Of a DNA stretch of 64,000 bases, positions 1,978 through 18,106 are shown in pieces; the stretch's first letter is position 1; each line of letters opens with the position of its first letter. The position numbers were made by a program, and so were the translations under genes. The stretch is from Halorarum halophilum (GTDB taxonomy: Archaea; Halobacteriota; Halobacteria; Halobacteriales; Haloferacaceae): NCBI RefSeq assembly GCF_013401515.1, contig NZ_CP058529.1:868001-932000 (forward strand). The letters run 5' to 3'. Under the pieces are notes generated by a model. It had not been told where the DNA came from. It did no database searches and was given only the letters and a program-made list of their open reading frames with translations.

Positions 1978-2029
1978 TGCGCGGGACCGGATTCGAACCG
2001 GCGGACCCCTATGGGACAGCGTCCTAAGC
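1978..2029. repeat. attL: orphan 3' fragment of tRNA-Leu(UAG)
   Basis: These 52 bases are identical to 11427-11478, which forms the discriminator, acceptor 3' strand, T-arm, variable arm and the 3' side of the anticodon arm of tRNA-Leu. The sequence diverges right after the 3' side of the anticodon loop, so no tRNA can be made from this copy. It marks the distal end of the element. Confidence 0.95.
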
Positions 2030-2031
2030 AC

Positions 2032-2052
2032 AACCGTGCCGAAAGCACGGTT
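2032..2052. terminator. Short perfect hairpin next to attL
   Basis: An 8-bp perfect stem (2032-2039 with 2045-2052) encloses a 5-nt loop. It begins 2 bp inside the element after the att repeat. It could end transcription entering from the host side or be an integrase arm site; the sequence alone does not decide. Confidence 0.3.
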
Positions 2053-2376
2053 TAGCGGCCATCTCTGCCCCTTTCAGGCTCTCTTGGCGCGTCTGTTTAA
2101 GTAGTACACCCTCGATAGTATATAAGCTTTCACGGGACAGTGTTAGACGTTATTCCCGTAGAACGGGGAGAGTAGTTCATTGTAGAGTCATTTAATCACC
2201 GACGTTTAACCCGATGATTCGCTCCTTCTCGTAATGGGGAGGTCGGTATTCCTTCCTTCACGGCTTGACAATGCACCGGACTCCGGCGAGAACGCCCGCC
2301 CTGACGGAGGGGGAAGGTGAACGGCGTTACTCAACGTAAGGCCTATCACCGCCTCAATCTTGTTCTGTTACCATAG
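2053..2376. other. AT-rich intergenic region before the methylase gene
   Basis: No convincing gene is seen in these 324 bases. The stretch is AT-rich and holds several TATA-like runs (for example around 2117-2125 and 2188-2193), any of which could promote the downstream methylase gene. No Shine-Dalgarno sequence stands immediately before the ATG at 2377. Confidence 0.4.
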
Positions 2377-3273
2377 ATGGCGAAGCCGGTCTTGAAATGG
2401 GCTGGAGGGAAACGGCAAATCCTCCACAAGCTCCGCGCGTGTATATCGCAAGATTACGACGCATACCATGAGCCGTTCTTCGGAGGAGGTGCCCTCTTTT
2501 TCGATTTAGAACCTGGCAACGGGAGTATAAATGATATTAACCCGCGATTAATGAATTTCTACTCAATCCTCCAGAGTGAAGATTGGCGAGATATGGTCGA
2601 GGAGGCCAAAGAATTAGAGGAAAACCACTCTGAGGAGTTCTACTACGAGTGCAGAGACGAGTTCAATCGCCTCCGTAATCAGCGAGGCCAAATGAGGTAC
2701 GACGAGCGCGTAAAGGAGGCCGCACTTCTTCTCTACCTGAACAGAACCTGCTTCAACGGACTGTACCGAGAGAACCAGAGTGGGGAATTTAACGTGCCGA
2801 TTGGGTCTTACAGCAATCCCGACATCGTTCACCCCGACCAGCTTCAGGAGGCTCACGATGCTCTCCAAGGGATAGACATTATGAACAAAGATTATCGGTA
2901 TATCGGCCACGAAGCCGAAGCTGAAGACTTAGTGTACTTTGACCCTCCATACCAGAAGGGGTCCGGAGAGAACTTTGCAGAATACTTCAGCGACACGTTC
3001 GACGTAGACGACCAAATAGAACTGCTCCACCTCGTATTGGACCTTCACGAACAAGGAGTGGAGGTAGCTATGTCCAATTCCGGTGCTGCGGAGAGGCTTT
3101 ACAAGAAAGAAGACCGCTATCAGGAGTATATTGAAAATGAAGACCTCTTTGTGGTCCCCTTAGAGGCAAGGCGGAGTATCAACAGCGACGGCGAAAACCG
3201 CACCGGGGCAGACGAGATTATTCTCACGTCGGTCCCCGAGCAGAAACGAAAGGAGTCGCTTTCTTCTTATTAA
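2377..3273 (+). CDS. D12-class DNA adenine N6-methyltransferase (Dam-like)
   Basis: The 298-aa protein has the layout of Dam/DpnM-type adenine methylases. These transfer a methyl group from S-adenosylmethionine to N6 of adenine in a short palindrome, often GATC. An N-terminal KWAGGKRQIL segment (residues 7-16) and the SAM-binding EPFFGGGALF loop (about 32-41) precede the catalytic DPPY tetrad at 189-192. Length is typical for a complete enzyme. The gene converges on the Mrr-type nuclease gene with a single base between the stop codons, suggesting a restriction-modification pair. The target sequence cannot be predicted. It may alternatively be a solitary protective methylase of the element. 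Confidence 0.92.
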   Translation: MAKPVLKWAGGKRQILHKLRACISQDYDAYHEPFFGGGALFFDLEPGNGSINDINPRLMNFYSILQSEDWRDMVEEAKELEENHSEEFYYECRDEFNRLRNQRGQMRYDERVKEAALLLYLNRTCFNGLYRENQSGEFNVPIGSYSNPDIVHPDQLQEAHDALQGIDIMNKDYRYIGHEAEAEDLVYFDPPYQKGSGENFAEYFSDTFDVDDQIELLHLVLDLHEQGVEVAMSNSGAAERLYKKEDRYQEYIENEDLFVVPLEARRSINSDGENRTGADEIILTSVPEQKRKESLSSY

Positions 3274-3274
3274 A

Positions 3275-4324
3275 TCACGACCAGTTACCTAAGCCGTCAC
3301 CCACATATTCGTATCTCTGTGGGCCTCCCGTAGTTCGTTTTTGATACTCTGGAAGGTAGTCTATCCACTTTCCACAGGTAGTCGCTCTCCTTGTTATCGT
3401 CGTCCCTGTAACGGCAGACTCCCTATCTATGATTTCCTTTAATTCGGTGTGAGTAATGACCCCTTCTTCCCGTATTTCGGCAGTAATCCGTTCTATCATT
3501 TCGACCCCTCTAATGGCCTCGCAAAGAACCTCTTTCGCAGCTTCGTCTTGTCCAACCTCGACTAACTCAAGGTACTCCTCTCCACGTCGAGTGAGGCCGA
3601 ACTCTCGCTTCTTTTGACCGTTTACCTTCTTCTGAAACCCTTTATGCAGTAGACCCAACATCCATGCGGCGTCGGGGTAGTACAAGCCCTGCCGTTCGAC
3701 ATATGAACTTTCAGCGTTGGTGTCCAAGTACGACTTGATTTCAGGGACGATAGTATAGCCTCTGTCAACTGCTTCAAGAGTTGTCCGAATAATATGGAGA
3801 TGGTCGGCTTGGGGAACCTCGCTGGTTGGGATAATGCCTTCTTCTTCCGGTTTCTCGAACGCCTCCCAAAACTCAATATCCTCATGGTAGGTAGAAGAAT
3901 CGACATATTCTACCCCAATTTCACTATTGAGCATAATTTCAGCCAACCGCTCGCCGTCAATCAGGCGGAGGTAGCTTTGTTCGGCGCTCTCAATCGCGGA
4001 GTCAGTATACCCTGAAGAAGTAATGTACGTACCAATTTGATAGTCAACGTCGAACAGGGCACCTTTGAACCGCTGAATCCCCGACAGGCCAATATTCGAG
4101 CTTTCTTGATACTGCTTGACCTGAACACCCAACCTCGCCCAAAAGAGGTCACGCTCAATTACAGCGTGTACGTCTATACCCCCATCTTGGCGAAACGGCG
4201 TTAACTCAAGCTCCCGTGTTCGCTCTGACCGCTCAAGGACAAGCTTGGATAACTGCTCAAACTGCGTGGGAGTTATCCCCAAGTACTGGTCACGAATATA
4301 GTCCTTGGCAGCCGCCTCCTTCAT
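3275..4324 (-). CDS. Mrr-type restriction endonuclease
   Basis: The 349-aa protein carries an Mrr_cat PD-(D/E)xK nuclease domain in its N-terminal half. The signature is DGGID (residues 47-51) followed by QVKQY (68-72), where D51 and K70 would be catalytic. The C-terminal half is mostly helical and charged, as expected for a DNA-recognition or winged-helix region. It is convergent with the Dam-like methylase gene and ends one base from it. Two functions are possible. It may be a Type II-like nuclease whose site is protected by that methylase, or a Type IV enzyme that cuts foreign modified DNA. The tight pairing favours the first, but this is inference. Confidence 0.85.
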   Translation of the reverse strand: MKEAAAKDYIRDQYLGITPTQFEQLSKLVLERSERTRELELTPFRQDGGIDVHAVIERDLFWARLGVQVKQYQESSNIGLSGIQRFKGALFDVDYQIGTYITSSGYTDSAIESAEQSYLRLIDGERLAEIMLNSEIGVEYVDSSTYHEDIEFWEAFEKPEEEGIIPTSEVPQADHLHIIRTTLEAVDRGYTIVPEIKSYLDTNAESSYVERQGLYYPDAAWMLGLLHKGFQKKVNGQKKREFGLTRRGEEYLELVEVGQDEAAKEVLCEAIRGVEMIERITAEIREEGVITHTELKEIIDRESAVTGTTITRRATTCGKWIDYLPEYQKRTTGGPQRYEYVGDGLGNWS

Positions 4325-4369
4325 TGAGGGTACCCTAGGTCAGACAGAAGTTAAAACCACCAGACAATC

Positions 4370-4591
4370 TCACCGGGGTCGCAAATCCCTCCAACGAAAG
4401 TCTACCTCACCACCCGCTTCAAGTTCGACACGGTAAATTATGGACTCGCGGGCATCACCGGTCAGCGTATCGGCGTCGTCCTCAACGACATTAATGACTG
4501 TCCCGTGGACCCCATGGTAGGCGTCGTGGTCGGGGTCCGTCTCGTCGGGGATGTCTATCCGAACACGGTCGCCCTCCATGAACTGCGGCAT
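4370..4591 (-). CDS. Small acidic SH3/KOW-like protein
   Basis: The 73-aa protein has the alternating pattern of a small beta-barrel: a GDRVRIDIP start, an HGVHGTVINV turn and a terminal VDFRWRDLRP. This resembles KOW or SH3-like nucleic-acid or protein binding folds found on haloarchaeal plasmids and viruses. It is the last of three co-directional small genes (4788-5291, 4639-4785, 4370-4591). No enzyme motif is present. The assignment is by pattern only. Confidence 0.65.
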   Translation of the reverse strand: MPQFMEGDRVRIDIPDETDPDHDAYHGVHGTVINVVEDDADTLTGDARESIIYRVELEAGGEVDFRWRDLRPR

Positions 4592-4638
4592 TGGACAACG
4601 ACGAGAACGAAGGGGGGAGGAAAGTATCTTTCAGTCGG

Positions 4639-4785
4639 CTACTTCACTTCGGTCCACTCGCACCCGCAGGACTTGCAGGTGTAGCACTCCTTGGTGATGG
4701 TCCCTTCCGCCTTCGCGAACATCACCACGTCGCTGGAGTCACCGCACCGGGGACAGGACTCTTTGACCTTCCGGGGGACAGGCAT
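4639..4785 (-). CDS. 48-aa zinc-ribbon protein
   Basis: This short frame starts with an ATG at 4783-4785 and ends at 4639. It encodes two CPxCG-type knuckles, CPRCG near residue 12 and CKSCG near residue 39, about 24 residues apart: a minimal zinc ribbon. The gene starts 2 bp after the stop codon of the SWIM-domain gene, so the two are very likely co-translated. Haloarchaeal genomes encode many such micro zinc-finger proteins, a few with shown roles in adhesion or regulation. The role here is unknown; a partner of the SWIM protein is plausible. Confidence 0.75.
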   Translation of the reverse strand: MPVPRKVKESCPRCGDSSDVVMFAKAEGTITKECYTCKSCGCEWTEVK

Positions 4786-4787
4786 GG

Positions 4788-5291
4788 TTAACGAGCCTCC
4801 CGCTGGTCACAGTAGCAGTCGAAGCAGGGAAGGTCTGAAAGTTCCGCGCACTCCTTACACTCCTCGTTGTCGTCGAGCTTGGCATCCGCGAGAACGCCGC
4901 CGTCCACCGCCAGTAGGTCCGTCCCGGTCTTAACCGCCGGTCTGTCGTCGGTGGCGGGGGCGGGGTTCTCGAAAATGACCGCCGCGTTGAGAACAGTTGG
5001 GCCACCTACGGAAGCAAGTGCTACTTTGTGTTTGCAGTCGGGGTCCCGGTGTACGTCTGCCGGGCACTCACACTCGGCGGGCACTACGATACCCTCACGG
5101 TCCTCAACGCCGACGACGTAAGCGTGCTTGTCCTTCTTGAAACCGTAGCTCGCGTTCGTTACTCGGACTTGGTACGGACCGACCACGGTGAACTCCCACG
5201 ACTCCCAAGCGACACGCTTCGCTGTGCGGGCGTCAAACGATAGGTGGTCAACAGCGGTACGCTTTTCTCCGATTCGGCTTGTAGTTGCCAT
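4788..5291 (-). CDS. SWIM zinc-finger protein
   Basis: The 167-aa protein contains the SWIM signature CxC-x9-CxH (C74, C76, C86, H88), a zinc-binding fold that contacts nucleic acid or protein. The C-terminus adds a Cys-rich tail (CKEC, then CFDCYC), possibly a second metal site. The upstream half (about 10-70) is a beta-rich region typical of haloarchaeal SWIM proteins. It heads the small zinc-protein operon and is divergent from the winged-helix gene at 5464, sharing a 172-bp intergenic region. A GC hairpin at 5321-5338 lies just upstream. Related genes are common on haloarchaeal plasmids, where their function is not settled. Confidence 0.85.
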   Translation of the reverse strand: MATTSRIGEKRTAVDHLSFDARTAKRVAWESWEFTVVGPYQVRVTNASYGFKKDKHAYVVGVEDREGIVVPAECECPADVHRDPDCKHKVALASVGGPTVLNAAVIFENPAPATDDRPAVKTGTDLLAVDGGVLADAKLDDNEECKECAELSDLPCFDCYCDQREAR

Positions 5292-5380
5292 TGGCTTCCA
5301 GTCCTGTGAGAAGCCACGTTCGGGCGCTCCAACGCCCGGACACTTTCACACGTCCCGAGGAACCCGACTTCTCTACCAGT

Positions 5381-5442
5381 AACTCCGGAGTTAGTGGTAT
5401 TAAGCGTTCTCCTTTAACTCCGCAGTCAATGGTGTTATAGCG
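5381..5442 (+). promoter_or_regulatory. Tandem promoter/operator repeats before the winged-helix gene
   Basis: Two similar 26-27-bp units (5381-5406 and 5416-5442) start with the same AACTCCG and end in a TATA-like tract followed by GCG. The second TATA-like element (about 5434-5439) is about 27 bp before the ATG at 5464, right for a leaderless transcript. They look like binding sites embedded in the core promoter, most simply for the adjacent regulator itself. Confidence 0.5.
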
Positions 5443-5463
5443 AAGCCGCTCCCACGCAGACAC

Positions 5464-5706
5464 ATGGGTAGAAAGCGGGATGAGGGCGGGCGCTACACTG
5501 AGCAAATAACACTGAATAGCGTCCTTGACGTCTTCAAGAACGCCGTTGTGCCAGTCCTCACCGCCACCGAGGTAGCCGAGGCATTGGACTGCTCGCGTCC
5601 GTCGGCGTATAACAAACTGGAGGAATTGACCGAACGGGGAGACCTTCACAAGAAAACTGTCGGAGCGGCGGCTGTGGTCTACATCTACCTACCAAATGGA
5701 GTGTGA
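5464..5706 (+). CDS. Small winged-helix DNA-binding protein
   Basis: This 80-aa protein has a helix-turn-helix core (VPVLTATEVAEALDCSRPSA) followed by the recognition-helix and wing pattern YNKLEELTERGDLHKKTVG. This is the MarR/ArsR-like style of archaeal regulators. Length fits a single-domain repressor. It is divergent from the SWIM operon, and tandem repeats cover its promoter, so it may control both directions. An element-maintenance or excision switch is possible but not shown. Confidence 0.8.
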   Translation: MGRKRDEGGRYTEQITLNSVLDVFKNAVVPVLTATEVAEALDCSRPSAYNKLEELTERGDLHKKTVGAAAVVYIYLPNGV

Positions 5707-5960
5707 AGTGGCAAGAACGACGGCGACAGGGAGGACGGTTGCAACACCAGACTATCTCTGTGACCGCGAATAATCGTTAGTCGGTGCGACAATTTTGGTG
5801 ATTTTCCAGACCACCATTAAGCCGTGCTACTACAAGTGTCACGCTAATATTATGCCGTCTCCCACGTATATGCTATTGAGGGAATAAGAGAGCGGTGTTT
5901 TTCGCTCTCAAGTTGGTGGATGCGTAGGTTCCTGCCATCGCCATATCCCTTTGGTGACCT

Positions 5961-6728
5961 ATGATGTACAGTAACAATGCCGCAGAAGAGATTAGAACTG
6001 ACGAGGAACATTTTGCTACTCACACTGCCTCAATGCTTGAAGGAGACGTAAATGAGTATCATTGGACATTTGCCCCCTTCACCCGGAACACGACGTTTCT
6101 CGACGTGAACGACCACGACTATCAAGCGTGGCAGAGGGGACTACCATCAAGTCGTCGCCGCGAAGTTGAGAAAAGAGACCACCGGTTTCAGAGGTACAAC
6201 GCCGGTACGCACAATCTGGCCTGGCATGATAATACGTGGCTCCGGCGTTGCGACGATTGGTACTGGTGTCATGCGATTTCCGACACGTTAGAAATGACTG
6301 AACACCAAAAGCGCCGAGTCTGTAGGCTCTACGACCAGCATATCGATATGCGGGCTTTCCCGTCAGAGAAATACGGTGAGCAATCAAAGTGGCTCGTCGT
6401 CCCGTTCTGTATCTGCGTGCTGGTACACAACGAGAACCAGCAGACGAAGGAGAACGGCGACCGTGACGAGCGGTACGTCTACTATCCGGGGAAGAAGGAT
6501 TTCCCCTCACGGCAGGCTTACGACGGGTCGATTAGGCGAGCCTATGATGCTACGAACGACCGGCATATCCTATTCATGGAGTTCTTGGAAGAACTGCCGT
6601 TAGACACTCCAACCGTCATTTCGTGCTTAGAAAGGGTTCGAGACAGGGTACCGGACTTCAAGCCGATGTATGAACCAGACTTTGTTCGAAATGAGGCGGT
6701 GAATCAAGTCCTCCATGCAGAAGTATGA
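5961..6728 (+). CDS. Unrecognised 255-aa protein of the element
   Basis: I do not recognise this protein. It is rich in Trp, His, Tyr and Arg. The central part (about 95-155) is predicted to be helical and has a weak cyclin-box-like look (SDTLEMTEHQKRRVCRLYDQ followed by a hydrophobic helix), which recalls TFIIB-type folds; that is a tentative reading. The ATGATG start is preceded by GGTGA at 5954-5958, a plausible ribosome site. A hairpin with a 7-bp stem (5888-5894 with 5903-5909) lies upstream. The gene is followed by the iteron-bearing non-coding region, so a replication or transcription role for the element is worth considering. Confidence 0.6.
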   Translation: MMYSNNAAEEIRTDEEHFATHTASMLEGDVNEYHWTFAPFTRNTTFLDVNDHDYQAWQRGLPSSRRREVEKRDHRFQRYNAGTHNLAWHDNTWLRRCDDWYWCHAISDTLEMTEHQKRRVCRLYDQHIDMRAFPSEKYGEQSKWLVVPFCICVLVHNENQQTKENGDRDERYVYYPGKKDFPSRQAYDGSIRRAYDATNDRHILFMEFLEELPLDTPTVISCLERVRDRVPDFKPMYEPDFVRNEAVNQVLHAEV

Positions 6729-6892
6729 GTATATAAATGACCGACCCCCTGTATATACCAAACTCTATTCCTACAAGTGAGAGGAAGTAGGTGAGAGACA
6801 AGGTCTTGAAATCCGCAAGAACGCCGCCGCCCACCGACCCGCCCCGCAGGGGTGGGAGCGGGCCACCGAGCGTTCCTTCCCTTCCAACCCCT

Positions 6893-7132
6893 GGACCGGT
6901 CATGTTGTACCTGTTCACGGAGATGGAGTCGCGGCCGTTCTTGACGATGACCGGTTATCTACGACCGGTCTGTGTCTGAAGGGTGTCCCACTTGAACACA
7001 GTCGTTTGATACAAGTTCTGTATTTCACCGTTCTCGTTGACGACAATGGACCTGTATTCAGTATTAGTATCCCTATTGACCATATCCTGACAAGTGTGAC
7101 CGGTTTCTATTGACCGGCAAATAATGACCGGT
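6893..7132. repeat. Iteron cluster with 14-bp spacing (candidate origin or operator)
   Basis: The octamer YGACCGGT recurs at 6948 and 6962, and then TGACCGGY recurs at 7097, 7111 and 7125. Within each group the starts are exactly 14 bp apart. A further GGACCGGT lies at 6893 and a degenerate TGACCATA at 7077. The whole non-coding interval 6729-7521 holds nothing else convincing. It has an AT-rich stretch around 7053-7085. Regularly spaced short repeats next to an AT-rich segment are typical of plasmid replication origins or of a multi-site repressor region. Confidence 0.6.
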
Positions 7133-7521
7133 ACACTCCGTGTACTGCGGCGTTCTTGACGTTGTCCGGGAAATATGGACAGTGATGAGATGAGCAGGGC
7201 CTCTACAGGTACGCCCATTGGTGTCCCACTGATAGGGTGTCACGCTCATTGCACACCCTCCACGGTCATCAGCTGGCCGTCATTGTGACCAACGTCTACC
7301 CCCCTACGATGGCCCTCAGAGGTCCGGACGAACTCACCACGGGCTTCCGTGAACCACCGAGAGTCTTCCTACGTTGAAGACAAGAAACGCAGTACGGGGG
7401 GTCACCGGGGCTCCTGTTGGATGGGTCACAGCGGCTATCGTTTTTAGGGAGAGTCCCTGTCACTGCGTTCACTAAGTACAGGGAAAGAACTGTACGCTTC
7501 CATCAGTACCATTGCCCACAT

Positions 7522-7746
7522 ATGGGCCGAGAACCATTTTCAGCACCGGAGGAATCATCGCGAGAGAAGCGTCGAAAATCGGCACTTCAAGTTGAGTATT
7601 CACTACTTGGTGCTTTTCTTGGTGCATTAATTGCGACTGCAGATGTGGCAAGCCAAGTGATTGGGGTCATTGCCATGCTTCTTGTTCTCCTGCCGTTCTT
7701 GACAAATCGCTATTGGGACCAAATTTATTCAAATCTCCCTCGATAG
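7522..7746 (+). CDS. Small membrane protein with two transmembrane helices
   Basis: From the ATG at 7522 the frame gives 74 aa. It has a charged N-terminus (about 25 residues, basic at its end) and two hydrophobic helices (about 29-45 and 47-62) separated by a very short turn, ending near NRYWDQIYSN. The frame stays open upstream to a TTG at 7417, but that part has no protein-like character. The gene lies between the iteron region and the first 55-bp direct repeat. Function is unknown; a small hairpin membrane protein could be an effector, holin-like or signal partner. Confidence 0.5.
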   Translation: MGREPFSAPEESSREKRRKSALQVEYSLLGAFLGALIATADVASQVIGVIAMLLVLLPFLTNRYWDQIYSNLPR

Positions 7747-7871
7747 ATTCGCAGACCTATTTTGTGGCTGTTCCAATGGGCTAGTTCTTGAAATGAAGCA
7801 GCTCGCGTTCCGCCGGAAGCCCACCACGACCAATGCCCAATGGCTATTTAAACTGCCGGAAGTATGAGGAT

Positions 7872-7926
7872 TGTCGCCGCCGTTCCTGACGGTTTTAGGT
7901 GGAAATTGAAATACGGTCGTATGGAG
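7872..7926. repeat. Direct repeat A flanking the cargo cassette
   Basis: This 55-bp stretch matches 9872-9926 at 44 of 55 positions in the same orientation; the two start exactly 2,000 bp apart. It lies outside recognised genes, in the 324-bp gap 7747-8070 that otherwise holds nothing I can assign. The pair encloses the genes at 8071-9754. Confidence 0.75.
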
Positions 7927-8070
7927 GATTTGACTTCCCGACTATTGTCCGTGATGGTCGAAAGCACTTCTTCAATATCTTGTTGATGGAGAAGGCTCGC
8001 TCTTGAGAGATAGTAAAAAGGAAGAGTTTCAGCAGAAAGATTCATACTCTGAAAAGTCGGTTAGGGGTTT

Positions 8071-8700
8071 ATGGGTTTTTGGGAAAAGGCGAAAGAGGAG
8101 TTTGAGAAAGGAAAGAAGACAGTAGAAGAAGCAGCATATACTCAAGAATATTCTGTTGAGCAAGCAGAGAAAGTGGCAAACGAAATGCGAAATGAGGTCA
8201 ATCCAGAGACGCTTCGGATGAAGAAGATGGGGAAGGCTCCCTTGGATTGGCTTGACGAAGGAGAAAAACTCGTCTATTTCCTCAACGGATTCGATTTAGA
8301 TATCGATGATAACGATGAGGGGTACAGTAGTCAACTTCTTGTAACGGATAAAAAGGTGATAATGCTGGCCAGTTCCATTACAGGAAAGAGAAGCCAGTAC
8401 ACAGTATTGTTTGAAGATATTATTGGGCTTTCTGTCCAACGACGAGTCCTATCGCATATCCGTATCCAAACGGCTGGGCACTCCTACAAGATTAGCGCGG
8501 GAGGGAGCGCACCTGGCCTTGCAGACGAGGTTGTTGATTATATCCGTCAGAGAAAGGAGGAAATTGGGTCAGAGGGAGATGAATCCTCTGAAGAGAGTGC
8601 ATTGGACAAATTGGAACGTCTTGCCGACCTTCGTGATAGAGGAGTTGTGACTGAGAAAGAGTTTGAGAGGAAGAAGGACAAGCTAATGGAGGAAATCTAA
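8071..8700 (+). CDS. PH-like domain protein with C-terminal SHOCT domain
   Basis: The 209-aa protein begins with a charged helical region (1-60). A beta-rich domain (about 65-160) follows, with the pattern of bacterial/archaeal YokE-type PH domains (LLVTDKKVIM, then FEDIIGLSV, then IRIQTAGHSYKI). After an acidic linker the last 32 residues form a SHOCT domain (LDKLERLADLRDRGVVTEKE), a small module common at the ends of membrane-linked and mobile-element proteins. There is no catalytic motif. It is the first gene of the repeat-flanked cassette, and its AT-rich codons differ sharply from the host. A scaffold or membrane-sensing role is an inference. Confidence 0.75.
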   Translation: MGFWEKAKEEFEKGKKTVEEAAYTQEYSVEQAEKVANEMRNEVNPETLRMKKMGKAPLDWLDEGEKLVYFLNGFDLDIDDNDEGYSSQLLVTDKKVIMLASSITGKRSQYTVLFEDIIGLSVQRRVLSHIRIQTAGHSYKISAGGSAPGLADEVVDYIRQRKEEIGSEGDESSEESALDKLERLADLRDRGVVTEKEFERKKDKLMEEI

Positions 8701-8833
8701 GGATTTAGTTGCTGGAGGTGTCCCGCTTTTCTTATGAGCTGTCCTTTCTCTGCAAAGGCATGCGGCCACCAAATGTCGATGATTGGCAGAGGTTTCCGAT
8801 ACCTTCTTTTGTCCTTGTCGATAGTTACTAACC

Positions 8834-9088
8834 ATGAGTGACGAATCATCTGATTCAAGCAGTGAATCCTCCTCCTCAGAGTCGAGTAGGGAACTCAGCA
8901 AGGAAGTGCCAACGGAGAACAGTCGTTCAAATAGCCGTAGTATAGGAAAAAGTGGTTCCAACAGTGGCGACGGCCCGTCTCGTCAAGAGGCAACCGGACA
9001 CATCCCGCACGATATGCAGGGTAGCGGTGGTAGCAGTAGCGAGGGGAACGGCAGTTCTGGAGAAGGTAGCAGTTCTTCAGACGAATAG
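8834..9088 (+). CDS. Serine-rich low-complexity protein
   Basis: An 84-aa frame is dominated by Ser, Glu, Gly and Asn, with runs such as SSSESSSSESS and GSGGSSSEGNGSSGEGSSSS. It is predicted to be entirely disordered, with no hydrophobic segment and no Cys. It sits in line between the PH-SHOCT gene and the membrane-protein gene, 21 bp before the latter's start. That spacing is the main reason to accept it as a gene. It might be a linker-like or phosphorylatable partner. A chance open frame cannot be excluded. Confidence 0.5.
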   Translation: MSDESSDSSSESSSSESSRELSKEVPTENSRSNSRSIGKSGSNSGDGPSRQEATGHIPHDMQGSGGSSSEGNGSSGEGSSSSDE

Positions 9089-9109
9089 AATCCCGTTTTC
9101 TGATTCTTC

Positions 9110-9754
9110 GTGGTGCCGACGCTCTCGCCCGAATACATACTCCTCGCACTTCTACTAATCACACCGGGATTTATTGCTACGCTAATTGCAATTAGTTTAG
9201 GAGTTGTTGAGAAAGAGGTTACGGATACTGAACTCTTAGGTTTCAGTCTTGTTTCTAGCTTGATAATAGACACAGTATTCATTGCTATTTATCAGATGGC
9301 CGGAGGTACGGTCTCCACTCTCTCATCTACACGAACTATCTTCTTCACACCACAGTTCCGAGCTGATTTGGTTCTCGGCTTGTTAACGGCTTCCGTTGCC
9401 CTCGGAGTCGTCTACGCGGTTGGACTGACATATGATGTCCCAAAACAAATCAGGCGAAGGTTGTGGTCCCGTAACGCGTATTCACGTCACCATCGGCAAC
9501 CGTGGGAGGGAGGACTCGAAAACGCTCATGAGGTGTGTGTAATTACGTCGGACCGAGAACTAGTCAACGGAATATTGAGCGAATACAGCCGGGTGGGAAA
9601 AGAGCGCCAACTGGTTCTTGAAAATCCTTCGTGGCTTAACCGCTCTAGTGGCGAGATGGACAATCATGGCGAACACAGCGTTGTGCTACTGGAAGACGAT
9701 ATTCAGCGTCTCTCCATTATCACAACGAAAAACGACAAATCTGATACAAACTAA
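9110..9754 (+). CDS. DUF6338-like membrane protein
   Basis: This 214-aa protein has three likely transmembrane helices (about 7-30, 42-62 and 87-108). The first contains the LLLITPGFIA pattern typical of DUF6338-like proteins. A soluble C-terminal domain follows with a QPWEGGLE turn and a beta-rich end (VVLLEDDIQRLSI). DUF6338 proteins are often found in variable genome islands; their function is not established. Two tandem GTG codons (9110 and 9113) are possible starts. It is the third gene of the repeat-flanked cassette. A membrane effector of a defence or conflict system is plausible but unproven. Confidence 0.65.
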   Translation: MVPTLSPEYILLALLLITPGFIATLIAISLGVVEKEVTDTELLGFSLVSSLIIDTVFIAIYQMAGGTVSTLSSTRTIFFTPQFRADLVLGLLTASVALGVVYAVGLTYDVPKQIRRRLWSRNAYSRHHRQPWEGGLENAHEVCVITSDRELVNGILSEYSRVGKERQLVLENPSWLNRSSGEMDNHGEHSVVLLEDDIQRLSIITTKNDKSDTN

Positions 9755-9871
9755 ATGTCTCTAATGTGTTCCCGGCGTCGCTCGGCTTTGTCAGCGGATG
9801 ACCCTTTGTCATAGTGTTTCGATAGCACAGCCCCGCTCATATTCACTCGCTCGCCAGTCACATCCTACGGC

Positions 9872-9926
9872 TGTCACCGCCGTTCCTGGGGGTTTCAAGT
9901 GGAAATTAGAATACGGCATTATGGAA
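9872..9926. repeat. Direct repeat B flanking the cargo cassette
   Basis: This copy aligns with 7872-7926 without gaps, 44 of 55 positions identical. The 5' CCGCCGTTCCTG and the central GTGGAAATT blocks are the most conserved. The neighbouring sequence on either side is unrelated between the two copies. Confidence 0.75.
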
Positions 9927-9996
9927 GGTCCGGCGTTCTCGTAGAAGTCGGCCAGACCTGAGTCGGAAAAGGAAACGTGGCAGTATTGACCGTCTA

Positions 9997-10263
9997 TTAG
10001 AGGACTTGGAGGTAGGGCCTCCTAAGTTTCGCTTCGGCCTCCATGTTTTTCGCTTCGACGTTCTCGGTGAGCCACATCCACTCGTCCCGACTGAAGGTCG
10101 CCCAACCGTCCAGACGCCCGTCCTTACCTACTCGCCACACCGTTTCTTTGAGAACTTCACTCTCAATCTCTCGTTCCTGTTCACGGTTGCTGGCGCTCGC
10201 GTACTCCTGCATGAGTTCGGCCAGCCGGTTCTCATCGATTTTAGGTGGATTGTGTTCGTTCAT
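9997..10263 (-). CDS. Small acidic protein co-transcribed with the integrase
   Basis: This 88-aa helical protein starts 2 bp after the integrase stop codon, so it is almost surely on the same transcript. It has an N-terminal charged helical region (LAELMQEYASASNREQ) and a C-terminal part with Trp residues (WRVGKDGRLDGWATFSRDEW). I recognise no domain. Some haloarchaeal tyrosine integrases are followed by small genes that assist recombination, so an accessory or directionality factor is a reasonable hypothesis rather than a call. Confidence 0.65.
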   Translation of the reverse strand: MNEHNPPKIDENRLAELMQEYASASNREQEREIESEVLKETVWRVGKDGRLDGWATFSRDEWMWLTENVEAKNMEAEAKLRRPYLQVL

Positions 10264-10265
10264 GG

Positions 10266-11363
10266 TTACCCCATGCGGTCAAGTGCGTCCCGGCGGTCTT
10301 CGACCGGGACTTGGTCGTACTTCATCGTCGTCTTCGGACACTTGTGACGCAGTTGGGCTTTCGTCGCGGCTAAGTCCCGTTCCTTGGTCATGTACGTTCC
10401 TACGCTATGCCGGATTGTGTACCACGACATTTGCCGGTGCTCATAGTCGATTCCTGCCCTATCACACAATCCATGCAGTAACCGCCGAAGTTCGTTGGCA
10501 CCGTACCTGTTCCCGTGACGGGTTAGCCACAAAGCGTCCGTATCCTCATAGCGAGGGTGGCTTGCCCGCTCCTCAAGCCATCGCTTCAGTGCTGTTGCAG
10601 TGCGGTCGGTAACGCTGACTGTCCAGTTGCCGTCGTTCTTGCTAGATTCCTCGATTGGGATTCGCAGGACTCCGTTATCAGGGTCTACCCATCCGACCTT
10701 GGCCCGCCCCACTTCCACAGGCCGTAGAGCCGCGTCGAGGGACGTCCACACTATTGAGGTAAACTTCCAACTCCCGTCTGTGACAGCGAGCGCGTCCTTG
10801 TCCTCCACACCGTAGGCGGGGTTCCCGTCGAGGCCAAGCGCAGCTTGACGGATAGCACGTCGCTCATCGACGGACAGGAAATCGCGAGGTTGGTTGTTTC
10901 CACCGCCGCTCTTGAACTTCCAGGGGAACGCCCACTGGTCTTGCCCGTGCTGTTCTGACAGCCACTTCGAGTAGCGACGGAGCATTTCTAACTTCTTGCC
11001 CTTCATACAGTCCGAGTCGTCACTAAGTGCCACTTCGTCCATGAAGACCGTCGCGTCCTCCTCCGTCGGGGGAGCTTTGTATCCGCCATTGTGGTCCCAC
11101 ACCCATCGGTCAAACGCGGCGGAGCGGTAGCCGGTCGCGTAGACGGTATACGGAGAGTAGCCTTTCGCCATCTCCGGGTTCTTGCCAAATTTCAGTAACC
11201 ACGTCAGGAACGACTTGCGGTACTCGTAGTAGTCGAGTTGTTCCTTCTCGGTCAGTAGCTCTTCGTTGGGCGTGGGGACGATTCTGATAGACCTGTTCGG
11301 TTCTGTTTCACTTCCATCCATTACGGGACAGCGTTCCAGCGTTTTCGGTCTGTTTTCGGACAT
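10266..11363 (-). CDS. int: Tyrosine recombinase (phage-type integrase)
   Basis: The 365-aa protein has an N-terminal core-binding (SAM-like) domain (about 40-140) and a C-terminal catalytic domain. The likely catalytic residues are R214 (ALRPVEVG), R318 (YTIRHSVGTYM), H340 (LRHKCPKTT) and the nucleophile Y349 (MKYDQ). It should cut and rejoin DNA at the tRNA-Leu att site, integrating or excising the element. The gene ends toward the interior and starts 63 bp from the tRNA. An alternative start (Met15, MDGSETEP) is possible. In the usual HxxR box the first His is replaced by Tyr (Y315), a minor deviation from the canonical set. Confidence 0.92.
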   Translation of the reverse strand: MSENRPKTLERCPVMDGSETEPNRSIRIVPTPNEELLTEKEQLDYYEYRKSFLTWLLKFGKNPEMAKGYSPYTVYATGYRSAAFDRWVWDHNGGYKAPPTEEDATVFMDEVALSDDSDCMKGKKLEMLRRYSKWLSEQHGQDQWAFPWKFKSGGGNNQPRDFLSVDERRAIRQAALGLDGNPAYGVEDKDALAVTDGSWKFTSIVWTSLDAALRPVEVGRAKVGWVDPDNGVLRIPIEESSKNDGNWTVSVTDRTATALKRWLEERASHPRYEDTDALWLTRHGNRYGANELRRLLHGLCDRAGIDYEHRQMSWYTIRHSVGTYMTKERDLAATKAQLRHKCPKTTMKYDQVPVEDRRDALDRMG

Positions 11364-11426
11364 ATTGGGGTCTTTCGTTCTATCTGACGCCCCAAGAAAA
11401 CTGCACGACGCAACGGAGTTGCGGAG

Positions 11427-11478
11427 TGCGCGGGACCGGATTCGAACCGGCGGACCCCTATGGGACAGCGTCCTAAGC
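11427..11478. repeat. attR: 52-bp core within intact tRNA-Leu
   Basis: These bases are identical to 1978-2029. The repeat covers the tRNA from the 3' side of the anticodon loop to the discriminator, so integration preserves a functional tRNA at this end. Confidence 0.95.
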
Positions 11479-11511
11479 GCTGCGCCGTTGGCCTGGCTTG
11501 GCTACCCGCGC
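11427..11511 (-). tRNA. tRNA-Leu (anticodon UAG)
   Basis: The minus strand folds as an 85-nt class II tRNA. The acceptor stem pairs 11505-11511 with 11428-11434, the discriminator is A at 11427, and CCA is not encoded. The anticodon loop CTTAGGA gives TAG, so Leu. A long variable arm fits leucine. A TATA-like element lies about 27-33 bp upstream (about 11538-11544). It is the integration target; its 3' 52 bases are duplicated at 1978-2029. Confidence 0.96.
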
Positions 11512-11594: not shown

Positions 11595-11903
11595 ATGTAC
11601 CGGGCCAGCGACGAGGTGCAGAACGAGGAGTGGCTGGCGCGACTCCGCAGGGCCGCGGAGTCGCTCGACCTCTCCGGCGAGGCGCGGTCGAACGCAACGG
11701 ACCTCTTCCTCTCACACGTCCCCGAAGCGGAGCGGTCGAAACCGGCGATGGCCGCGGCGGCGCTCTACGCCGGGGCGCTCATCGCCGGGGACGAACGGTC
11801 ACAGACGCGCGTCGCGGACGCCATGGAGGTGACCCGGCTCTCCGTCCAGCAACACTGGAAGGACATCCTCGAGGACGCGGGGTTCTCGCCGCCGACGTGG
11901 TGA
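11595..11903 (+). CDS. TFIIB-like cyclin-box protein
   Basis: This 102-aa protein consists of a single cyclin-fold repeat related to transcription factor B. The helical pattern KPAMAAAALYAGALIAGDER is followed by a helix-turn-helix-like end (RVADAMEVTRLSVQQHWKD). It lacks the zinc ribbon and the second cyclin repeat of a full TFB, so it cannot by itself act as a general factor. A TATA-like box (about 11564-11572) lies about 27 bp before the ATG, consistent with a leaderless mRNA. A DNA-binding regulator is likely. It is the first host gene beyond the element. Confidence 0.75.
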   Translation: MYRASDEVQNEEWLARLRRAAESLDLSGEARSNATDLFLSHVPEAERSKPAMAAAALYAGALIAGDERSQTRVADAMEVTRLSVQQHWKDILEDAGFSPPTW

Positions 11904-16927: not shown

Positions 16928-18106
16928 ATGGACCGACCCGAAGTTGATGAACTTACGCCGCCAGACCGAACGCTGATGGGTCCCGGCCCGAGCGACGTTC
17001 ACCCCCGAGTACTCCGCGCGATGTCGACCCCGCTCGTCGGCCACCTCGACCCCGCGTTCGTCGAGATCATGGACGAGACTCAGGAGCTCCTGCGGTACGC
17101 GTTCCGAACCGACAACCAGTGGACCATCCCCGTCTCCGGGACGGGGTCGGCGTCGATGGAGGCGGCCATCGGCAACCTCGTCGAACCCGGCGAGACGATG
17201 CTCGTCCCGACGAACGGCTACTTCGGCGGTCGGATGGCCGACATGGCGCGCCGCGCCGGCGGCGAGGTCGTCGAGGTGGACGCGCCGTGGGGCGAGCCGC
17301 TCGACCCCGCGGACGTGAAGAACGCCTTCGACGAACACCAGCCCGACGTGTTCGGCTTCGTCCACGCCGAGACGTCGACGGGCGTGCGCCAGCCGAGCGT
17401 CCCCGAACTCACGTCGATCGCCCACGACCACGACGCCTACGTGATCGCCGACTGCGTCACGTCGCTCGGCGGCGTCGAACTCAGGGTCGACGACTGGGAC
17501 GTCGACGTGGCGTACTCCGGCCCGCAGAAGTGCCTCTCGTGCCCGCCGGGCGCCTCGCCGCTCACCCTGAACGACCGCGCGATGGACAAGGTCCTGGGGC
17601 GGGAGGAGCCGTCCCGCTCGTGGTACCTCGACCTCTCGCTGCTCGAGGGGTACTGGGGCGACGAGCGCGCGTACCACCACACGGCGCCGATCACGAACGT
17701 GTACGCTCTCCGCGAGTCGCTCCGATTCGTCGCGGAGGAGGGCATCGAACAGCGGTGGGACCGCCACCGCGACGTCGCCGGCGCCCTGAAGGCGGGCGTC
17801 GAGGCGATGGGGCTCGAGATGAACGCCGCGGACGAGTTCTGGCTGCCGAGTCTCAACGCGGTACGCGTCCCTGACGGGGTGACGGACGGCGCCGTCATCG
17901 AGAGCCTGCTGGCGAACTACGACGTCGAGATCGCCGGCGGCCTCGGCGACCTGTCGGGCGACATCTTCCGCATCGGCTGCATGGGTCACTCCGCCCGACC
18001 CGGCAACGTCTCGTTCCTGGTGAGTGCGCTGGGCGAGACGCTCCGCGAACAGGGCGCCGACGTCGACGTGGGCGCGGGGACCGAGACGGTCGCGAGCGAA
18101 CTGTAG
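16928..18106 (+). CDS. Class V aminotransferase (alanine-glyoxylate/serine-pyruvate type)
   Basis: This PLP enzyme should move an amino group between alanine or serine and glyoxylate or pyruvate in the cytosol. The 392-aa protein starts with the family mark LMGPGPSDVHP. It contains SGTGSASMEAA (phosphate-binding region), VIADCVTSLGG (the Asp that contacts the PLP ring) and the Schiff-base lysine in SGPQKCLSCPPG. The C-terminal RIGCMGHSARPGNV is also typical. The ATG at 16928 is preferred to a GTG-type start 27 bp upstream, since the conserved region begins about 16 residues later. Substrate preference cannot be fixed from sequence. Confidence 0.9.
   Translation: MDRPEVDELTPPDRTLMGPGPSDVHPRVLRAMSTPLVGHLDPAFVEIMDETQELLRYAFRTDNQWTIPVSGTGSASMEAAIGNLVEPGETMLVPTNGYFGGRMADMARRAGGEVVEVDAPWGEPLDPADVKNAFDEHQPDVFGFVHAETSTGVRQPSVPELTSIAHDHDAYVIADCVTSLGGVELRVDDWDVDVAYSGPQKCLSCPPGASPLTLNDRAMDKVLGREEPSRSWYLDLSLLEGYWGDERAYHHTAPITNVYALRESLRFVAEEGIEQRWDRHRDVAGALKAGVEAMGLEMNAADEFWLPSLNAVRVPDGVTDGAVIESLLANYDVEIAGGLGDLSGDIFRIGCMGHSARPGNVSFLVSALGETLREQGADVDVGAGTETVASEL

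Follow-up and report, generated by a model that had tools for sequence, protein, structure and literature searches.

The DNA analysed here (the window, 64,000 nucleotides) is a part of a haloarchaeal chromosome with a GC content of about 0.67 in a genome of 4.28 Mb. It contains a low-GC island at 1978-11426, which is a 9.45-kb mobile element inserted in tRNA-Leu(tag). A 52-bp att repeat at 1978-2029 marks the distal end and is identical to the copy at 11427-11478, which lies in the 3' part of the tRNA-Leu gene (11426-11511, minus strand), and a tyrosine integrase is encoded at 10266-11363 on the minus strand (PF00589, E=2e-14). With direct repeats of the tRNA 3' end as its bounds and an integrase of its own, the island qualifies as a tRNA-targeting integrative element. 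A related element in genome G056 uses the same tRNA-Leu(tag) and has a 65% identical integrase; it also carries the SWIM and wHTH genes and encodes a protein that is related to, but shorter than, the 255-aa protein described below.

The cargo includes a Dam-type methyltransferase and an Mrr-type nuclease, whose genes are adjacent and arranged tail to tail at 2377-4324, possibly as a restriction-modification system or a methyl-dependent defence. The middle of the element holds, in order, the divergent SWIM and winged-helix (wHTH) genes, a gene for a 255-aa protein (5961-6728, + strand), the non-coding region that is the subject of this report, and small genes, one of which encodes SHOCT/bPH and another DUF6338 domains. 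A host gene next to the tRNA-Leu target, immediately beyond the end of the element (11595-11903, +), encodes a 102-aa protein with one TFIIB repeat (PF00382, 28.9 bits); such repeats are matched 21 times in the host genome.

The region directly downstream of the 255-aa gene (6729-7521, 793 bp) contains no ORF with a homologue and no recognisable gene, in agreement with an earlier note on this DNA that had described a non-coding stretch of about 790 bp. A 110-codon open frame at 6781-7110 was rejected as a hidden or decayed gene, since it has neither a start codon nor a homologue; its apparent best match, a sensor-kinase ORF, is weak and was judged to be due to chance. The region carries repeated short boxes on the + strand. 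Exact copies of the octamer TGACCGGT occupy 6948-6955, 7097-7104 and 7125-7132, and copies with one mismatch occupy 6962-6969 (CGACCGGT), 7111-7118 (TGACCGGC) and 6893-6900 (GGACCGGT, which forms the near-palindrome GGACCGGTCA); a weaker copy, TGACCGAC, starts at 6737. As the earlier note had reported, the boxes at 6948/6962 and at 7097/7111/7125 form two groups with steps of exactly 14 bp. The box core, ACCGGT, is palindromic. The three 6-bp spacers (TATCTA, TTCTAT and AAATAA) have A or T at 16 of 18 positions and are mutually dissimilar, which rules out a tandem minisatellite.

The two groups are separated by an AT-richer interval (6970-7096). Measured in 60-bp windows over 6969-7108, the AT content is 57-62%, compared with 46% for the region, a modest enrichment. 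A perfect 12-bp inverted repeat, CAAGAACGCCGC, at 6816-6827 and 7147-7158 encloses every box except the weak copy at 6737; no target-site duplication was seen by eye at this repeat. The last box overlaps a further palindrome, GTACACTCCGTGTAC (7131-7145). TATA-like sequences, TATATAAA (6731) and TATATA, recognised by pattern only, lie at 6730-6757, directly 3' of the 255-aa gene, where they overlap the weak box; there is no strict TATA box inside the array. Farther downstream, a palindrome of the form GTACAG-N8-CTGTAC is located at 7476-7495, just before a frame for a 74-aa membrane protein (7522). Arm-type sites for the integrase were considered as the identity of the array and judged unlikely, since both att ends are over 4 kb away from it.

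A second potential regulatory site is found on the other side of the 255-aa gene. The wHTH regulator (80 aa; 5464-5706, +) has weak HTH/TrmB matches in Pfam, is assigned to phrog_18890, and is 65-73% identical to its homologues in related elements. The SWIM/wHTH intergenic region contains the palindrome CCAGTAACTCCGGAGTTAGTGG at 5376-5397, followed at 5411-5432 by a second copy with two mismatches. Six related elements have a palindrome of the form CCA-n-TAACY-nCGn-RGTTA-n-TGG, in which the symmetry is largely kept while the bases vary. The palindrome is the probable operator of the wHTH protein. As the conserved palindrome differs from the boxes, the wHTH protein, a candidate that we set aside, is the less likely protein to bind them.

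How unusual the array is was assessed with a score that required an octamer with at least three equal-step pairs, allowing at most one mismatch and steps of 9-31 bp. When the 792-bp region was shuffled with its dinucleotides preserved, 8 of 8595 sequences reached the score of the array, or about one in a thousand. The region was, however, picked from 64 kb; for about 80 independent slices, the shuffles imply a chance expectation of some 0.08 such arrays, which makes the array in the window unusual without being overwhelming. Real 792-bp slices of the window reach the score in 9 of 160 cases, and two of these (adjacent and overlapping) exceed it. The high-scoring slices other than the array all have CGACGA-like words or steps that are multiples of three, which makes codon periodicity their probable source. 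Overall, the significance of the array is moderate, with a stacked chance probability for the whole window that has to be reckoned with.

The host genome contains the box pair a single time. Searches of plasmids and of 392 genomes of the order gave no similar sequence, apart from 20-50-bp matches at chance level. Bacterial genomes and viral contigs do contain matches to three TGACCGG-N7 units, and these were rejected as counterparts: those listed are minisatellite-like, with 14-bp or 7-bp units, or unrelated GC-rich DNA, and most have spacers that are alike, in contrast to the array in the window.

The 255-aa protein has no match in Pfam or NCBIfam and belongs to the PHROG family phrog_12649 (E=2e-16), with which it shares the conserved positions N-x-T, D-N, L-E-L-T and Y-x-P. 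By profile search, the family is present in about half of the 392 genomes of the order, and it also occurs in tailed haloviruses of 57-77 kb. In HRTV-25, HRTV-8 and HF2 the family gene is directly followed by a gene for an ERCC4-type nuclease, while on its far side lies a gene for a LAGLIDADG, HNH or other endonuclease.

Modelled from its own sequence alone, the 255-aa protein gave no usable fold (pLDDT 32), and the fold was therefore taken from homologues that are 24-33% identical. A family core model, built on a provirus member with the window protein among its ten added relatives, reached a mean pLDDT of 76 and consists of a single helical domain with one cyclin box only. Its matches among solved structures are almost exclusively TFIIB, TFB, Brf and cyclins. 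Foldseek assigns probability 1.00 to TFIIB chains, with no E-value below 0.05, and VIA-align gives Z of about 9-11 (maximum 10.8) at 2.0-2.9 A over about 92 residues, with Z 9.8 for archaeal TFB (1d3u_B). The alignment of the family profile with the TFB repeats of the host is co-linear but weak, and no TFIIB entry of the PDB was matched significantly in a sequence-profile search. Although such Z-scores are not proof for helical folds, the consistent list of matches together with the profile alignment points to a predicted TFIIB-like, cyclin-box fold, which is extended to the window protein by homology.

Repeat arrays are also found beside other members of the family. Fixed flanks of 58 phrog_12649 genes were compared with those of control genes of the same loci, counting as an array any chain in which a 9-mer occurs three or more times with at most one mismatch and steps of 10-30 bp. 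Upstream arrays were present at 14 of the 58 family genes and at 14 of 258 controls (Fisher 6e-5), and in a separate shuffle test 10 of 16 tested upstream regions reached p <=0.04. The signal comes from short, viral-type genes (11 of 14 with an array), a figure that is descriptive, since the grouping was made after the arrays had been noticed. The viral-type repeats are 9-12 bp long with steps of 10-30 bp, mostly 12-16 bp, and the repeated word is private to each virus or provirus: TCCTATTCG (five copies) in G428, CTGTGCTGT (five) in G059, AGACTACTC (five) at L249, TTGGTTACA (four) in G351 and TACTCTTAG in HRTV-8.

The best-studied case is that of HF2, where direct repeats 14-15 bp apart are located in a mapped bidirectional promoter at nt 17022-17068 (PMC8707807). 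According to the HF2 record, the start codon of HrrHF2_215 is 37 bp from this promoter, and HrrHF2_215 matches the phrog_12649 profile (E=4e-46). Thus, the best-studied array next to a gene of this family is a bidirectional promoter.

The window itself does not follow the viral arrangement, as the upstream flank of its 255-aa gene has no array. Downstream arrays, of which the window has one, show no enrichment (4 of 58 family genes and 35 of 271 controls), and a family-wide downstream array was accordingly rejected; the downstream repeats in G054 and G117 are looser, with uneven steps. At the closest homologue of the 255-aa gene (L318 in G054), five CATTGAGGG-like repeats with uneven spacing occupy the 0-270 bp downstream of the gene. 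No equal array follows the gene in the nearest integrated-element relatives. The earlier note had named conservation of the spacing in related elements as a check on function, and on this point the result is unfavourable: related integrated elements do not keep the 14-bp spacing.

Our tentative preference, held with somewhat less than even confidence, is that the boxes are a cis-regulatory array of protein-binding sites that acts as an operator or in promoter control. A DNA-binding protein would bind cooperatively to the GACCGG(T) boxes, which follow one another in 14-bp steps and are separated by AT-rich DNA, and the bound array would control transcription in the intergenic stretch that divides the 255-aa gene from the block of genes farther downstream in the tRNA-Leu element. 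Because viral family members usually adjoin such arrays, the first candidate for the binder would be the TFIIB-like 255-aa protein. What speaks most against this reading is the location of the boxes, which follow their gene where viral arrays precede theirs, and the lack of an equivalent in the nearest elements. The earlier note had suggested a plasmid origin or a cooperative operator. The operator half of that suggestion has gained from the TFIIB-like family, the viral upstream arrays and the HF2 promoter, while support for the origin half is indirect, and no known initiator is encoded in the element and no equal array follows the gene in relatives.

Three other explanations have to be weighed against a regulatory array. 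That the boxes are a chance resemblance, with five to six GACCGG words falling at 14-bp steps in decayed, functionless intergenic DNA, is rather unlikely. The expected number of arrays over the window would allow it, as would the boxes being conserved in no relative and the lack of a regulon, since no strong box sites were found elsewhere in the element; it sits poorly with three exact octamers and three one-mismatch copies set in AT-rich spacers, and with arrays of the same style beside homologues. It is improbable that the region encodes a structured non-coding RNA, which would run rightward from TATATAAA at 6731 and in which neighbouring palindromic boxes would pair as hairpins. The TATA-like sequence directly after the 255-aa gene is suitably placed for it, and the RNA folding is more stable than expected (z -2.4, with 1 of 100 shuffles equally stable); however, there is no Rfam match for the array region and no conserved homologue in which covariation could be sought, and hairpins would leave the equal 14-bp steps unexplained.

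It is also unlikely that the array is an iteron-type replication origin of the excised element, at which the 255-aa protein or another factor would bind the boxes and open the AT-richer stretch. This idea is kept because of two observations. In two sister elements, the slot of the 255-aa gene directly downstream of the wHTH gene is taken by a putative Rep with a DUF1424 match (L104 7871-8746 and L103 7949-8929, both on the minus strand), over the cut-off in G119 (E=3.4e-6) and just below it in G116; and in the betapleolipovirus SNJ2, rep is immediately followed by the replication origin (PMC13107129). An origin would also suit the placement of the box groups on either side of the AT-richer interval, the enclosing inverted repeat, and a single strand that folds better than its shuffles (DNA folding z -2.85). 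Against it, no Rep or other known initiator family of Pfam, NCBIfam or PHROG was recognised in the element, the viral family members adjoin an ERCC4-type nuclease in large tailed viruses, and the HF2 array is a promoter. Transcription is favoured over replication because no initiator is recognised and because of the HF2 parallel. In another element with a SWIM/wHTH pair, a 542-aa protein (L107 10312-11940, +) faintly resembles the small subunit of primase (E=0.001 in NCBIfam, well short of the cut-off).

The weight of the finding for the window itself is modest. Regularly spaced repeats had been described in HF2 without a binder (PMC8707807). The analysis adds the predicted TFIIB-like cyclin-box fold for the adjacent protein family, and the recurrence upstream of its viral members of repeats that have their step, and not their sequence, in common. 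Protein and site thus form a concrete pair that can be tested. If the regulatory reading is true, a virus-borne branch of an archaeal basal-factor fold would serve as a dedicated regulator. A wider conjecture, which we regard as quite unlikely and offer as speculation, is that phrog_12649 proteins are single-box TFIIB relatives that read private repeat arrays, one word per virus or element, as a fast-diverging promoter code, of which the array in the window would be this element's version.

Several known systems resemble parts of this arrangement. Archaeal TFB and TFIIB have the cyclin-box fold predicted for the phrog_12649 core, but the family has one box instead of two, no N-terminal zinc ribbon recognised with Pfam, and no Pfam TFIIB match. 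Iteron origins of theta-replicating plasmids likewise have regularly spaced direct repeats beside an AT-richer segment, and at least three such repeats are present here, with only a modest AT enrichment; the window differs in having no recognised initiator and a short unit (an 8-bp box and a 14-bp step). SNJ2 shares with the window a non-coding region with inverted repeats directly 3' of an element gene. Its origin, however, combines a hairpin with an inverted repeat and is recognised by a DUF7845 protein, Rep-Arvir (PMC13107129), whereas none of the ten element proteins scanned has a Pfam match to DUF7845, and no direct-repeat rule applies here. The HF2 array precedes the family gene in the space between divergent genes, its repeats enclose TATA boxes, and start sites have been mapped there (PMC8707807), while the array in the window has other sequences and lies downstream of the gene. 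What HF2 and the window have in common is a phrog_12649 gene beside short direct repeats at steps within about 12-16 bp, 14-15 bp in HF2 and exactly 14 bp here.
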